Source: Halobacteriovoraceae bacterium
GTDB taxonomy: Bacteria > Bdellovibrionota > Bacteriovoracia > Bacteriovoracales > Bacteriovoracaceae
Direction: 5' to 3'
DNA: 64,000 nt
NCBI GenBank assembly: GCA_002711995.1
Contig: PASN01000019.1
Span: forward strand, 341,626 to 405,625
A program made the translations under genes and the position numbers. The stretch's first letter is position 1. The number at the start of each line of letters is the position of its first letter. The notes beneath the pieces were generated by a model that made no database searches, was not told the DNA's origin, and worked only from the letters and a program-made list of their open reading frames with translations. Below, piece after piece: positions 54,967 through 60,017 of the stretch.

Positions 54967-55248
54967 GCTTCAAATTCTCCAAATTATAAATTTAATTTAG
55001 TGAGTTGATTTTCCGATAAATTATCTGACACGAATTTTTGTCACTAAAATTTGTGAAACGAAGTTAAAGAAAAATAATTTATAAAAATATAAGATACTGA
55101 AATTTGCTTAAAAGAACATTCTAAAGTGTTGTAATTATTGATTCATTGTTCTTTGAATGCTCTCGGGCCTAGATTGAGCACACTAATAAGAGGGCCTGAA
55201 GCTTTTTAACACTATTATGTCGTCAGCTATAATAATGGCAGGGGAAAT
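54967..55248. other. Non-coding AT-rich stretch before the prepilin-like locus
   Basis: About 280 bp very rich in A and T with no credible gene. It should hold the promoter of the three-gene locus downstream. A palindromic TCACTAAAATTTGTGA lies near 55039-55054. Confidence 0.5.
55205..55233 (+). promoter_or_regulatory. Candidate promoter of the prepilin-like operon
   Basis: TTTAAC (55205-55210) and TATAAT (55228-55233) are spaced 17 bp apart, 15 bp ahead of the ATG. The leader would be very short and would contain the AGGGGA site. Chosen by eye. Confidence 0.5.
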
Positions 55249-56994
55249 ATGATGAAAAAAATACTTAAATCGTTAAGAGGCGAGAGATTAGGGCAGTCAG
55301 GCTTCTCCCTTGTTGAAGGAGTGGTTGCTTTAGGTCTCGCCGCCGTTATTGGTGTTGGTGGCATGAAGTTAAGCGAGCAGTCCAATAAGCAGGTCAGCCT
55401 CACAAAACAAAACCTTGAACTAGATCAATATATTCGTCGTTTACGAACCCACCTCACTGACAAAGTTGCCTGTAATCAAATTGTAAGCAAAAGCGCTGGC
55501 GCTTTGAAGGTGAATCTTCAAACTTTTAACGCACAAGTAGCTCCACCTATGCCTGTTAAGAACACCAAAGTGATTGCTCCGGCGGTTACAGGTGTTGGCA
55601 GAGAGGTTGTTCCCGCGTCTGTGATTGTTTACTTTGATCGCCAAACGGAAAACTTAAAAAGTGCATATGCCGTCAAGAAAACTACGGCAATGATTGAGTA
55701 TAATAATGGAGCCTTTGTAGGTTGCTCAAATTATGAAGCGGAATCAGAGATAACTACATTCAAGCTTGCATGTGAGAGTTTGGGCGGAACGTTCTCCCTA
55801 GACACAGGAAAAGCAGGATCTGAGAAGTGTGACTTTTCCGCAATTGGCCCTGATCACTATGTATTGCAACAGGTTAAGAAAAGAGCTTGTGAAGAAATTT
55901 ACAATGGAAGCTTTGATGGTGTTGAATGTAACAGTATGACCATGCCAACAACTCCATCCTATGGCGCAAATCTTACGGCGAATTCGTTTCTTTTATCTGA
56001 CAAGTGGGTGAAGACTTTTAACCAGTCTTGCCCTGGGCAAAATAACTTTGTTGCCTCTGTATCTTCAGACGGCAGCGTCACCTGTAAGACCGTTGCCTTT
56101 TGCACGAAGTGCGACTCTTCCTGTCCAGCATCAGGGCCATTGTGTGACGGAGATATAACCAATGACCGCGAGCCAGCTGAACTTAATTGTGACGACAATG
56201 ATGAGTACTTCTTAAGCGCTTCAAATTCCGCTACTGAAACAAATAAATGTATGTTTAAGGATTACAGCATTAGCTCTGATGAAAAGAGCTGTAAGTCTAA
56301 AGAGTCCACTGACGCTACTGCCGGAATATGTAAGCGTTTTAAAAGTGGAACCTGTGACGGCACAGTCGCTGGGACTGTTGAGAACTACCCTGATGGAACC
56401 TCTTGTGGAACGGACAAGACCTGTCAAAGTGGATCGTGTGTAAAAGATGAAGTGAATGAAGACAATTCAGCAGGCCAGGATCCAAAATGTGGCACTGGAG
56501 AAGTGGCCTTTTCCAGTAAGTCAAAGTGTGAAAGTGAGACAGGAAAGACCTGTAAAGCACAGGACTTTAAACTCTATAGATTTCCTACACAAGTCAACGA
56601 CCCTGTCGACACTAGAGAGCACCCTTTATGTAGGAACTACATAGAAAAGGTCTGCACCAATACCCGTACGACAAAATCATGTACTGGTGAAAGACGTAAA
56701 AAAGGCGAGGAAGAAATCCTTCCTTGTAACAAAGTGGCCAAATACTGTCCTTCTGATGAAGAGCAAGAAGAGCCAGAAGAACCTGAAAAAGAAGGTGTTT
56801 GGAAATTAGCAAACTATGGTGAAGATACGTGTAAAGAGGATGTTCCAAAGTGTTCTGTACTAATCGGAACGCCATGTGACAAAGTTGGGCGTGGGTATAG
56901 GGAGTGTAACGATAATCCGGGACCTCCTCCTGGGACGCCACCAGATGCAAACTTCTGCCAGATTAACCAAGTTGTGACTTGTGAAGAAAAGTAA
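55249..56994 (+). CDS. Prepilin-like exported protein with cysteine-rich C-terminal region
   Basis: The 581-residue protein carries a class III prepilin signal, LGQSG|FSLVEGVVALGLAAVIG, with cleavage after Gly18 and Glu at +5, followed by the hydrophobic helix of a pilin. A shared module follows, with Cys175 in CESLGGTF and later paired Cys (EKCDF, RACEEIY, VECNSM, SCPGQN, VTCKTVAFC). The last 300 residues hold about 40 cysteines in short spacings, including DGTSCGTDKTCQSGSCV, which resembles the Cys-rich segment of ADAM/reprolysin-type and other secreted disulphide-rich domains. The size is far above a normal major pilin. First gene of three; 12 bp before the next. Likely a pilus-tip or surface adhesin-like protein (inference). 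Confidence 0.85.
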   Translation: MMKKILKSLRGERLGQSGFSLVEGVVALGLAAVIGVGGMKLSEQSNKQVSLTKQNLELDQYIRRLRTHLTDKVACNQIVSKSAGALKVNLQTFNAQVAPPMPVKNTKVIAPAVTGVGREVVPASVIVYFDRQTENLKSAYAVKKTTAMIEYNNGAFVGCSNYEAESEITTFKLACESLGGTFSLDTGKAGSEKCDFSAIGPDHYVLQQVKKRACEEIYNGSFDGVECNSMTMPTTPSYGANLTANSFLLSDKWVKTFNQSCPGQNNFVASVSSDGSVTCKTVAFCTKCDSSCPASGPLCDGDITNDREPAELNCDDNDEYFLSASNSATETNKCMFKDYSISSDEKSCKSKESTDATAGICKRFKSGTCDGTVAGTVENYPDGTSCGTDKTCQSGSCVKDEVNEDNSAGQDPKCGTGEVAFSSKSKCESETGKTCKAQDFKLYRFPTQVNDPVDTREHPLCRNYIEKVCTNTRTTKSCTGERRKKGEEEILPCNKVAKYCPSDEEQEEPEEPEKEGVWKLANYGEDTCKEDVPKCSVLIGTPCDKVGRGYRECNDNPGPPPGTPPDANFCQINQVVTCEEK

Positions 56995-57006
56995 GGTTGA
57001 AATATT

Positions 57007-58446
57007 ATGAGAAAGCTAAAAACGAATATACTTTTAAATCAGATTGGCAGCAGCATGATCACTGTAATGATCGGTGGAGTTGCCATTGGGCTTGGTGCCA
57101 TGATGGTGGCAAAGACCGGCCTTGAAAGAGGAAAGATGTATGCGGACACATCTCAAAACACCTTGATTGAGTACGCAATGCTTGATTTAAAAACCAACCT
57201 TGCATCTCAAAAAGTCTGCAAGGATTCAATGGACTCTGGATTTACCCAAATTGGGCCCTATAGTGTGGGTGACGATCTGGGCGGTGGAGTGAGCATTGAA
57301 CAAATAAGAGATCAAAACCCTGGAATGCAAGATCGCGACATCTTAATTGTGTTTAAAAAGGACAAGGCCCAGGGGAGTGCCTCCAGACGTACAGACAAAA
57401 TCTCTATTCAAACATTCAAGGCCCCAGATCCGGCAGATCCGACAGGTGTGGCAACCATTGAAAGTTGTTCTTCCTTCCAGATTGCCACAGCTGAGGAAGG
57501 CCTTGAAAACTTTTGCAAGGCCATTGGTGGCGTATATGACTCAGCTGAAGGGCGTTGTGATCCAAACCTAGCAACGGACTCCAAGTTTAGAGACGACGTG
57601 GACGCATTGGCGTGCGAGGTTCTGGGCGGAACATTGAATGGCTCAGGTGAATGTGACCTAATTTCAATAAGCGGCAATCTAATGTCCAAAACATTTAAAC
57701 CAGCACTTATAAAGCTTGGTGGTGGCAGTAGAAATAATGCCGTCGGAGGAACTTGTTCAAATACTCAAGTAGGTAGAGGGCTATCTTCGGATGGGAAGTT
57801 GAATTGTGAAACGATTAAATGCCCACAACCAAGTGACTCGACTTACTCTCCAAGATATGTAGGTTCCCAGCTTTACTGTGAATGTCAAAGAGACAGGGGC
57901 GCCAAACTAGGCTGTGGCGAAGAAGATGTTAATTCCTGTGAGGATTATGAAGTTGATGATGGCTGTGGCAATGGCGGAACGTGTGTCATTAGAAGAAAAA
58001 AGAAGGTTTGTCCTGAAATCCCAAGTTGTGTTGATGATGGACCTAAAAACTATTACAGCACAGAGGGTTGTAATTACTACTGTGGCCAGGCGCCGAAGTG
58101 TGCTGAAGGTGAAGAGCCTGAAGTTCCAGAGGAGCCAAAGTGTGAAGACACCTCATGGACTCCAAATCTAGCAACCGTTTGTGACACTGATCGTGTTACC
58201 CAAACAAGCAACTGTGGAAACACTCGTCGCAGGCCTGGCACTAAGGACTGTAGTGCGAAGGGGTGTTGGGAGCTTGGAAGAGCAAGTTCAACTAGGCCCG
58301 AGATAAACCCTGCAGGATTTCCAAAGTCAAATTGGACTTGTACCTCCGGTGCGGGCAAGCCTCCCAAGAATTGCAAAATAGGAAATCGTTGCGTGAACGA
58401 GTGGAAATACGGCACAAGAGAATTTGAATGTTTGCCATGCAACTAA
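57007..58446 (+). CDS. Prepilin-like protein 2 with cysteine-rich tail
   Basis: The 479-residue protein begins with a pilin-like helix, but the site NQIG|SSMITVMIGGVAIG lacks the usual Glu at +5 (Thr instead). The helix and shared module are otherwise like its neighbours: Cys170 in FCKAIGGVYDS, later CEVLGGTLNGSGEC and SSDGKLNCETIKC, similar to SSDGSVTCKTVAFC in the first gene. The C-terminal 200 residues have about 28 Cys, with C-x-C and W-x-P patterns (SWTPNLATVC, QTSNCGNTRRRPG). Middle gene of the set. Missing Glu+5 suggests an assembly-incompetent or initiating minor pilin (inference). Confidence 0.8.
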   Translation: MRKLKTNILLNQIGSSMITVMIGGVAIGLGAMMVAKTGLERGKMYADTSQNTLIEYAMLDLKTNLASQKVCKDSMDSGFTQIGPYSVGDDLGGGVSIEQIRDQNPGMQDRDILIVFKKDKAQGSASRRTDKISIQTFKAPDPADPTGVATIESCSSFQIATAEEGLENFCKAIGGVYDSAEGRCDPNLATDSKFRDDVDALACEVLGGTLNGSGECDLISISGNLMSKTFKPALIKLGGGSRNNAVGGTCSNTQVGRGLSSDGKLNCETIKCPQPSDSTYSPRYVGSQLYCECQRDRGAKLGCGEEDVNSCEDYEVDDGCGNGGTCVIRRKKKVCPEIPSCVDDGPKNYYSTEGCNYYCGQAPKCAEGEEPEVPEEPKCEDTSWTPNLATVCDTDRVTQTSNCGNTRRRPGTKDCSAKGCWELGRASSTRPEINPAGFPKSNWTCTSGAGKPPKNCKIGNRCVNEWKYGTREFECLPCN

Positions 58447-58473
58447 AAAACGGAAAATTTTTGTGGAGTTACA

Positions 58474-59328
58474 ATGATAAAATATTTTAAACAAATTTTA
58501 AATCAAAAGGGTGTAAGCGCCATGGAGCTAGTGGTTGGCCTTGGCATCGCTGGTGGCATTGGACTCATGATGACTCAAAATATGAAGACTCAGCAAGATG
58601 CCCAAAACAGCAATGAAGAAAGTAGAAGCGCTGAACTTGCCATCAAGTCAGTAATGGACTCACTCAAGAAGAAAGATACCTGTGAAAATGTTCTTTCTGG
58701 ACTCAATGTTAATCAAATGGCCAACAGTAATGGCCTGGATTTAACAATGGGACAGTTAAGCGCTTGGAGGTCTTTAAGCGCTAATCTTGGCTCAAGAATC
58801 TCCCTCGAAGGGGTAAATGCAAAGCTTGGCGCAAATGCGGGCAGAACGCCCTTAACTCTGACTTTTGAGTTTAAAAGGCCAACTGGAAAATCTCAAAGTG
58901 CTGGCAACACCTTTAAGCGTGGTATAAAAATGGATGTAAGCGTGGAGGCCGGTGATATTTTATGTGAACACGTGGACGAGTCTGGCGTTGCCCTCAATGC
59001 TTTGGAGAAGATATGCCTGCAAATAGGAGGAGTTTTTACAGCTTCTGGAGAGTGTGAAGTTTCTGGCATAGACCCAGTGCTTAGAGAGAGATTTGCCAGG
59101 GCGATTTGTGACTCTGTTGATAAAGACAGCAGCTCAAATTTTGCTTCAGATAAATGCATCCGGATTAACATACGGGACAATCTGACCACTAAAAATGTTG
59201 CCGCAAACTACATAACTATTAACGGATCCACCAGGGAAGTTTTTGACAACTCTCAATGCTCAGGCCACCTAAAAGGCTATACCGTGAAAGGGGAGAAGGT
59301 TTGTGGAAATGTTGTCTTTGACCGTTAG
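58474..59328 (+). CDS. Prepilin-like protein 3 (compact)
   Basis: The 284-residue protein follows GTGGAG. It has a prepilin-type site NQKG|VSAMELVVGLGIAGG with Glu at +5. The same shared module follows: Cys181 in ICLQIGGVFTASGEC, then ICDSV...DKCIRINI and QCSGHLKGYTVKGEKVCGNVVF, aligned to the corresponding blocks in the two genes upstream. It lacks the long Cys-rich tail. It is the shortest paralogue and may be the basal or most abundant subunit. Confidence 0.82.
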   Translation: MIKYFKQILNQKGVSAMELVVGLGIAGGIGLMMTQNMKTQQDAQNSNEESRSAELAIKSVMDSLKKKDTCENVLSGLNVNQMANSNGLDLTMGQLSAWRSLSANLGSRISLEGVNAKLGANAGRTPLTLTFEFKRPTGKSQSAGNTFKRGIKMDVSVEAGDILCEHVDESGVALNALEKICLQIGGVFTASGECEVSGIDPVLRERFARAICDSVDKDSSSNFASDKCIRINIRDNLTTKNVAANYITINGSTREVFDNSQCSGHLKGYTVKGEKVCGNVVFDR

Positions 59329-60017
59329 TCTTTAAATATAAATGTCCATCAACTCCCTTGGTTGATGGACAGATTCACCATAACTATCTCTGATTCATAA
59401 TTTCATCAAATTTCAAAACTCAAATCTTCAGAAGGCCCTACGTTAAAGACCAATTAAAACGGTTACTTTTAAGCAGCAAGTTTTTTAGTTATCAAGTTGC
59501 AATGATTCGCACAATTAAGTCAATAATGCTGAAGTTAGAAGCATCAGAGTGACCTTCTTTGGGATCTTGTTTAAAATAAACGTAAAATTAACTGTCACAT
59601 TATCAAGAATACAAATGAAAAGTGAATTTGGATCACAGTGATTAACACCAATGATTGGCCGGGAATTTTTAACAAATTATCTGTGGAGACTAGTCACTAA
59701 AACCTAAAAGTTTAAAGGCCTAAAGTTACATTAAATTACAGTAATGAGATTTCAATAATTGGCCGGAAAAAAGAACCTGCGACTTTAAAAAATGGTTAGT
59801 GATGTTATCCTTAATCCGAAAGATTTCTTTTAAAATTAAGGCCGTATTCTGGCCAAAAAACCCCTTGAAAATAATGCACGATAAGAAACATTATCGCACA
59901 TTTTGCTGCGTAGCGTTCGTTTGATTTTAAGAGTTTAGCCAAGGACGATATAACTTATGGGCCTGAGCTGATCTTCAGTCTGGCCCTAACCCATAAATTA
60001 GCTTCATAGTTTAACTA
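59329..60017. other. 690-bp non-coding region
   Basis: No gene supportable on either strand. A 10-bp hairpin (59343-59352 with 59362-59371) lies 15 bp past the last prepilin-like gene and is a weak terminator candidate without a T-run. An ATTGGCCGG motif occurs twice (59652 and 59758). CGATAA...TTATCG forms a small dyad near 59879-59896. A larger stem TTATGGG/CCCATAA (59955-59961, 59990-59996) with internal CTGA/TCAG is near the minus-strand gene end and may be its terminator or a small RNA. Confidence 0.55.

Follow-up and report, generated by a model that had tools for sequence, protein, structure and literature searches.

Three paralogous prepilin-like genes with an eight-cysteine body and variable C-terminal ends: a probable pilus-tip set in a Halobacteriovoraceae genome

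We analyzed a stretch of 64,000 nucleotides from a Halobacteriovoraceae bacterium (contig PASN01000019.1; hereafter the window), in which three open reading frames (ORFs), genes A, B and C, lie head to tail on the + strand with gaps of 12 and 27 bases (Table 1). A first-pass annotation of this locus, made from the letters alone, had seen here three prepilin-like proteins sharing a cysteine-framed module. We found that the three proteins are paralogues across an N-terminal body of ~280 residues, that genes of the same three classes (A, B and C) stand together in several related genomes, and that the C-terminal modules carried by one class in the window are carried by another class in relatives. 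We consider it probable that the trio is a set of pilus-tip subunits, comparable with the known PilABC and HIJK sets, whose end modules are exchangeable. In the labels used below, G stands for genomes (G000 is the window's own genome), L for loci in them and P for database or metagenome proteins.

Table 1. Genes, modules and other features of the trio locus (positions are those of the window)
Feature	Position	Strand	Description or evidence
Gene A (class A)	55249..56994	+	581 aa; prepilin cleavage predicted behind Gly18; mature residue 5 is Glu
Gene A, shared body, residues 1-284	55249..56100	+	profile end, class profile matches
Gene A, C-x2-LGG block, Cys175 to Cys194	55771..55830	+	sequence motif
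Gene A, ADAMTS-like cysteine-rich module, residues 351-399	56299..56445	+	Pfam PF25379, 20.1 bits, below cut-off 31.8
Gene A, candidate exchangeable end block, residues 401-581	56449..56991	+	identity to P0010 falls sharply, starting at residue 402
Gene A, last module, residues 516-581 (66 aa)	56794..56991	+	likeness to the ends of P0005 and P0010
Gene B (class B)	57007..58446	+	479 aa; cleavage predicted behind Gly14; mature residue 5 is Thr (codon 57061-57063)
Gene B, shared body, residues 1-272	57007..57822	+	profile matches
Gene B, C-x2-IGG block, Cys170 to Cys184	57514..57558	+	sequence motif
Gene B, class-specific cysteine-rich extension, ~residues 273-362	57823..58092	+	kept within class B
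Gene B, last module, residues 420-479	58264..58443	+	resembles class A tails of P0012 and L043
Gene C (class C)	58474..59328	+	284 aa, no tail beyond the body; cleavage predicted behind Gly13; mature residue 5 is Glu
Gene C, C-x2-IGG block, Cys181 to Cys194	59014..59055	+	sequence motif
Promoter-like site just upstream of gene A	55206..55233	+	11/12 consensus positions; consensus match only
Stem-loop after gene C	59343..59371		RNA fold z -3.12; T-run on the minus strand

None of the three proteins has a Pfam or NCBIfam match above cut-off or any PHROGs match. Compared as single sequences by BLASTP, A matched B at E 1e-6 and B matched C at E 7e-4, with no significant match between A and C (best E 0.72). 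Profiles of the three classes, built from 11 A, 11 B and 7 C bodies and stripped of the prepilin helix, matched each other at 4.6e-20 (A-B), 3.9e-18 (A-C) and 1.5e-19 (B-C), far beyond the reversed controls (0.072, 0.15 and 0.17, respectively). A, B and C are paralogues across the whole body, and the origin by duplication that had been proposed for them is supported by the profile similarity, the lack of which would have spoken against it.

Eight body cysteines (70, 164, 181, 194, 212, 228, 262 and 277 in the numbering of gene C) are invariant in 29/29 aligned bodies; body ends were set by hand for gene C of the window (W_C), P0004 and G128_B, here as well as in the Glu5 and tail-length counts below, and for W_C and P0004 also in the comparison of 23 tails. 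The C-x2-(L/I)GG-x-(F/Y) block lies in all three ORFs where the first-pass annotation had placed it, at Cys175, Cys170 and Cys181. The S/K-x-G-x(3)-C block that it described further downstream is a loose motif, reading S-D-G-x3-C in genes A and B and V-K-G-x3-C in gene C. The likeness it had noticed is real; however, what the proteins share is the whole ~280-residue body, of which the block is one part.

The prepilin-like start ascribed to all three proteins was recovered by an automated scan, which found class III signal features (a short basic leader, a Gly cut site and a hydrophobic helix) in A, B, C and their relatives. Counting from the cut predicted after the conserved Gly, mature position 5 is Glu in 10/10 class A and 7/7 class C proteins and in 0/11 class B proteins, which have T, Q, N, M, A or S there (P0012 has no N-terminus and is outside this count). 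A lone minor pilin lacking Glu5 may indicate the subunit with which a filament starts (PMC5207764), and K of HIJK as well as PilA of the PilABC set of Streptococcus sanguinis are described as lacking this residue (PMC9934059). The pattern, Glu5 in A and C and none in B, is thus independent support for a tip complex.

The same arrangement is frequent among the loci that we fetched, which were picked by similarity and are not a random sample: one Glu5-less member was present in 8/9 three-gene prepilin-like clusters. Among larger clusters, position 5 reads EEEQ in L046 and, by the main scan, EQEE in L061 (by another reading L061 has six genes in two sets, each with E twice and Q once). The window's own genome has a cluster resembling a type II secretion system (T2SS) with five pseudopilin-like genes whose position 5 is E, E, E, E and M; the fifth would be K by its position alone, as Pfam gives it no name. 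Two further observations concern prepilin-like genes outside the trio. L058:7176-8204 (own genome, G000:C6) is an isolated prepilin-like gene that has Ser at position 5 and ends in a glycine-rich stretch, perhaps another minor pilin; L047 (G014 contig C141) is a row of six prepilin-like genes (866-912 aa) that are poor in cysteines and lack Glu at position 5.

Searching the genomes of relatives for the same triplet, a check that the first-pass annotation had proposed, brought the total to five complete loci in four genomes, each with a single gene of every class, in three gene orders: A-B-C (window, L043, L103), C-A-B (L044) and B-C-A (L045). Two of these trios (L043, L044) are carried by G044, and partial sets were found on short contigs of G128 and G129. 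Neighboring genes are not alike across the three loci inspected (window, L043 and L045). The trio is a unit whose members keep company. A 97-aa fragment similar to the start of class B (L044:7468-7761) directly precedes the second G044 trio and is perhaps a remnant of duplication.

In a tree of 21 bodies, classes A (8 rows), B (7 rows) and C (4 rows) were supported at 100/99, 100/99 and 100/98; two more class C candidates, G57_2 and G129a_2, fell in no supported class and were put in class C by our reading (for G57 only, also by BLAST). P0013 is class C-like by our reading and enters no class count, L054:5591 is a weaker relative present in one alignment and in no class count, and P0009 was left out as a duplicate, being equal to 336/344 residues of the class A protein of L045.

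The profile of the three bodies had a match in 63/97 relatives at E 0.01, many of them via the prepilin start alone. The cysteine module alone was found in 18/129 genomes of the family at 1e-4 and in at least 16/368 genomes of the phylum at 1e-5, 14 of those 16 belonging to the window's own family. Matches better than 1e-10 occurred in six genomes (G000, G044, G057, G112, G128 and G129). Within the own genome, the body profile gave four weaker matches over the prepilin start and no additional full-length copy.

What follows the body varies among relatives from 0 to 773 residues, in line with the earlier description of the cysteine-rich ends as variable. A tail is present in 11/11 class B proteins, in 9/11 class A proteins (at least 77 residues) and in 4/7 class C proteins (at least 116 residues); gene A, with tail and body together, has 34 cysteines. 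The first ~90 residues of the B tail are alike within class B, an insertion ahead of that part being present in G128 and G129. For other modules, the class that carries them changes from one relative to the next. The ADAMTS-like module of gene A is also found on class C of G57 and G112, and the last module of gene B on class A of L043 and P0012 (26/68 against P0012, E 4e-13), while the last module of gene A is identical to the end of the class B protein P0005 in 52/66 residues versus 43/64 for the class A protein P0010. In a comparison of 23 tails (9 A, 10 B and 4 C, G128_B not being among them), 16 cross-class pairs reached at least 38 bits, whereas 40 cysteine-preserving shuffles gave at most 28.5 bits; the pairs are not independent, as several of the proteins are close kin. 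Gene A and P0010 are identical in 399/401 of their first 401 residues and in 119/184 of those aligned from residue 396 on.

Base composition was examined for signs of a foreign origin of the tails and proved uninformative: GC content (0.43-0.50) and GC content at third codon positions (0.34-0.42) are alike in bodies and tails. By sequence, the PDB yielded matches to the helix only (geopilin, E 0.0019); ADAMTS-1 appeared at E 0.17. Some relatives end in other ways. The metagenome protein P0013 (762 aa) combines sub-cut-off ADAMTS-like modules with a Hint domain at its C-terminus (Hom_end_hint, 35.8 bits, cut-off 32.1), that is, a self-processing domain on a pilin-like protein. A second tail style, repeated short C...G...DG...C units after the body, was seen in L107:7825-9297, L108:6958-8409 and L109:6621-8021. 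In the own genome, L057:8626-10542 (G000:C18, ~153.6 kb) starts like a prepilin (N_methyl, 23.1 bits, cut-off 21.2) and has a C-terminal Peptidase_S74 chaperone domain (60.5 bits, cut-off 22), a pilin start fused to a phage-tail-fibre-like end.

The first-pass annotation had made its pilin reading depend on a prepilin peptidase in the genome; two such genes are there, together with type IV and type II assembly genes. A type IVa operon has, above cut-off, two ATPases, T2SSF, a major pilin, a peptidase, PilM, PilO and a secretin, with PilP just below cut-off and PilN not recognised; by our reading, the major pilin is the only pilin gene beside it and no minor pilin gene is present. Besides the T2SS-like cluster, the genome also has a Tad-like locus, which includes a short peptidase of its own. 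PilY1 (PF05567) had no match in the own genome and in 97 genomes, nor in 14 control genomes, so this result is not proof of absence. We favor the type IVa pilus as the most likely machine for the trio because of the start motif and because this operon has no minor pilins of its own nearby; this is the weakest step of our argument.

Taken as a tip set, the trio could work as follows. The prepilin peptidase of the own genome would cut A, B and C after the conserved Gly; the helices of A and C, bearing Glu5, would dock into the filament, and B, if the rule published for HIJK and PilABC applies, would be the topmost subunit. The eight invariant cysteines may stiffen the body through disulfides, and the additional cysteine-rich modules would be presented at the tip, where they would make exchangeable contacts with other cells or with surfaces. 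In this way the trio might let the cell alter what its pilus tip sticks to. Processing, assembly into a trimer, position at the tip and binding are all presumed here from sequence. A simple role as prey glue is disfavored by the report that Bdellovibrio requires its type IVa and Tad pilin genes for predation and not for prey binding (PMC5430801).

Several results weigh against a tip set. No pilus gene was recognised adjoining the trio, and its distribution is patchy, with no module match in two drafts of the same genus (82% and 81% complete). The Pfam N_methyl score of window A (14.8 bits) is below the cut-off of 21.2, and B and C have no match. The ninth of the three-gene clusters mentioned above (L050) has two Glu5-less members, and the larger cluster L047 has no Glu at position 5 at all (5/5). 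B is the largest of the three proteins in only 2/5 complete loci, unlike the bulky K. Structure prediction, another check proposed at the outset, gave a long helix followed by strands at low confidence and did not confirm a pilin fold: two AlphaFold models were poor (predicted local distance difference test scores of 53.5 and 51.8, from 13-sequence alignments), and Foldseek with the first model returned 576 PDB matches at E 10 and none at 0.001. Because of the low confidence, the models were not used.

One could argue from the subthreshold prepilin scores of the window proteins, and from the lack of any structural or biochemical sign of assembly, that A, B and C are membrane-anchored adhesins whose prepilin-like helix never enters a filament. 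A plain anchor would not explain why Glu5 is kept in 17/17 of the A and C proteins whose N-terminus is complete and is missing from 11/11 B proteins; moreover, a class C relative, L045:9696, passes the prepilin cut-offs of both Pfam (22.1 versus 21.2) and NCBIfam (TIGR02532, 20 versus 16.3). We consider this explanation very unlikely. If the proteins do enter a filament, it could be that of another machine. The Tad-like locus of the own genome makes one think of the Kil tips of Myxococcus, which are sets of three genes, located either inside the Tad locus or away from it, that vary in their C-terminal domains and for which many disulfides are predicted (PMC12075869). That locus already has small pilin-like genes of its own (by our reading; Pfam names none of the three), and the start of the trio proteins (G|FSLVE and alike) appears to us nearer to the own PilA and the T2SS pseudopilins than to the Tad-like pilins; we consider a Tad tip improbable. 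The T2SS-like cluster offers a further possibility, an alternative pseudopilus tip that would grip periplasmic substrates rather than other cells, and the capping of the pseudopilus by a Glu5-less K (PMC5207764, PMC4471445) agrees with it. Since this cluster is already provided with five pseudopilin-like genes, the last one without Glu5, and since long variable cysteine-rich tails would better fit an exposed surface, we assign little likelihood to such a secretion role.

A different doubt concerns the tails alone: their exchange could be an appearance created by chimeric metagenome assembly, in the case of P0010, and by chance or convergent likeness between cysteine-rich sequences. P0010, compared here as protein sequence, comes from 2 contigs (5 member sequences). 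The own genome has no other copy of the A or B tail at E 0.01 (the contig ends 4.7 kb downstream of the trio) and hence no silent tail copies, just two imperfect pairs of direct repeats of 23-26 bases link the DNA of the genes, and tails do not differ from bodies in base composition. On the other hand, the shuffled tails produced no matches of this strength, the last module of gene A is closer to a class B module than to P0010, the break of identity in gene A coincides with a module edge, and further cross-class matches come from other genomes. We regard an artifact of this kind as unlikely, and recombination may well have moved the modules. One could speculate, and we do so tentatively, that a predator lineage re-tools its pilus tip as cysteine-rich modules move among three co-assembled subunits and between strains, any seat being able to hold a module, with neither silent cassettes nor a dedicated switch involved.

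As to the surroundings of the genes, the promoter consensus scan of the region gave 16 sites versus 8.8 expected from shuffles, and terminator-like sites were not in excess (4 versus 4.5). In the database protein list genes B and C are present (11 contigs each) and gene A is not; the nearest entry to A is P0010 (88%), and A may sit inside the P0010 cluster.

The statement of the first-pass annotation that no named system has this layout was too strong, given the similar tips described in S. sanguinis (PMC9934059) and Myxococcus (PMC12075869). A search of the open-access literature by titles and beginnings of abstracts (subscription journals and preprints lie outside it) gave no description of the trio itself; the closest layouts are PilABC and the Kil tips. 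PilA, PilB and PilC of S. sanguinis are likewise three minor pilins from one operon, with exactly one lacking Glu5 and with C-terminal modules; two of the three are modular, their extra C-terminal domains adhere, and the complex is modelled at the pilus tip (PMC9934059). The modules of PilABC are a lectin and a domain resembling von Willebrand A, and PilA, the member that lacks Glu5, is described without a module (PMC9934059). In the trio, by contrast, the Glu5-less B always has a tail (11/11), one eight-cysteine body is common to all three proteins, and modules occur across classes; PilABC, besides, comes from a monoderm. No von Willebrand A or lectin Pfam match was found in the window proteins, which have only the sub-cut-off ADAMTS-like match in A.

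KilL, KilM and KilN of Myxococcus resemble the trio as three-gene sets of minor pilins with variable C-terminal domains; they belong to a predator, with several sets per genome, and structural analogues are reported in Bdellovibrio (PMC12075869). The comparable numbers here are two sets in G044 and one in the genome of the window, whose host is presumed to be predatory. The Kil tips serve a Tad pilus, are TadEFG-like, and their hidden Markov models are given as restricted to Myxococcota (PMC12075869); our comparison with them is by layout. Unlike them, the trio has a start of type IVa/T2SS kind and modules that differ in which of the three genes carries them. In the window proteins no TadE-like Pfam match was found.

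The GspH-I-J-K and PilH-I-J-K sets share with the trio a minor-pilin operon with a single, capping member that lacks Glu5; they differ in having four subunits with a bulky K, and a cysteine-framed body does not appear in the passages on HIJK of these sources (PMC5207764, PMC4471445). The window proteins had no Pfam or NCBIfam match to the GspI, GspJ or GspK families. In the PilV shufflon of IncI plasmids a constant N-terminal part is combined with exchangeable C-terminal adhesin ends that alter which cells are recognised, by means of neighboring cassettes and a recombinase (PMC9045228); in the trio, three genes share modules and the genome has no second tail copy. No recombinase was named among nine neighboring proteins that were Pfam-scanned for another purpose, no search for recombinases having been made. 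In the same wider group, the mosaic adhesive trimer fibres of Bdellovibrio are reportedly modular prey-recognition proteins; these fibres are not known to be pilin-like. The PilY1 proteins of myxobacteria diversify type IVa tips by yet another route (PMC13190605).

In 2025, prey-dependent killing by Myxococcus was linked to variable pilus tips (PMC12075869). For the Bdellovibrio-like group the trio could offer a sequence-level handle on prey choice, composed of a constant body, a Glu5 pattern that would point to the capping subunit, and end modules that can be followed as they move. If our reading is true, surface or prey specificity should be testable through removal of single modules. What is new relative to the known tips is the sharing of ends across three paralogous classes.

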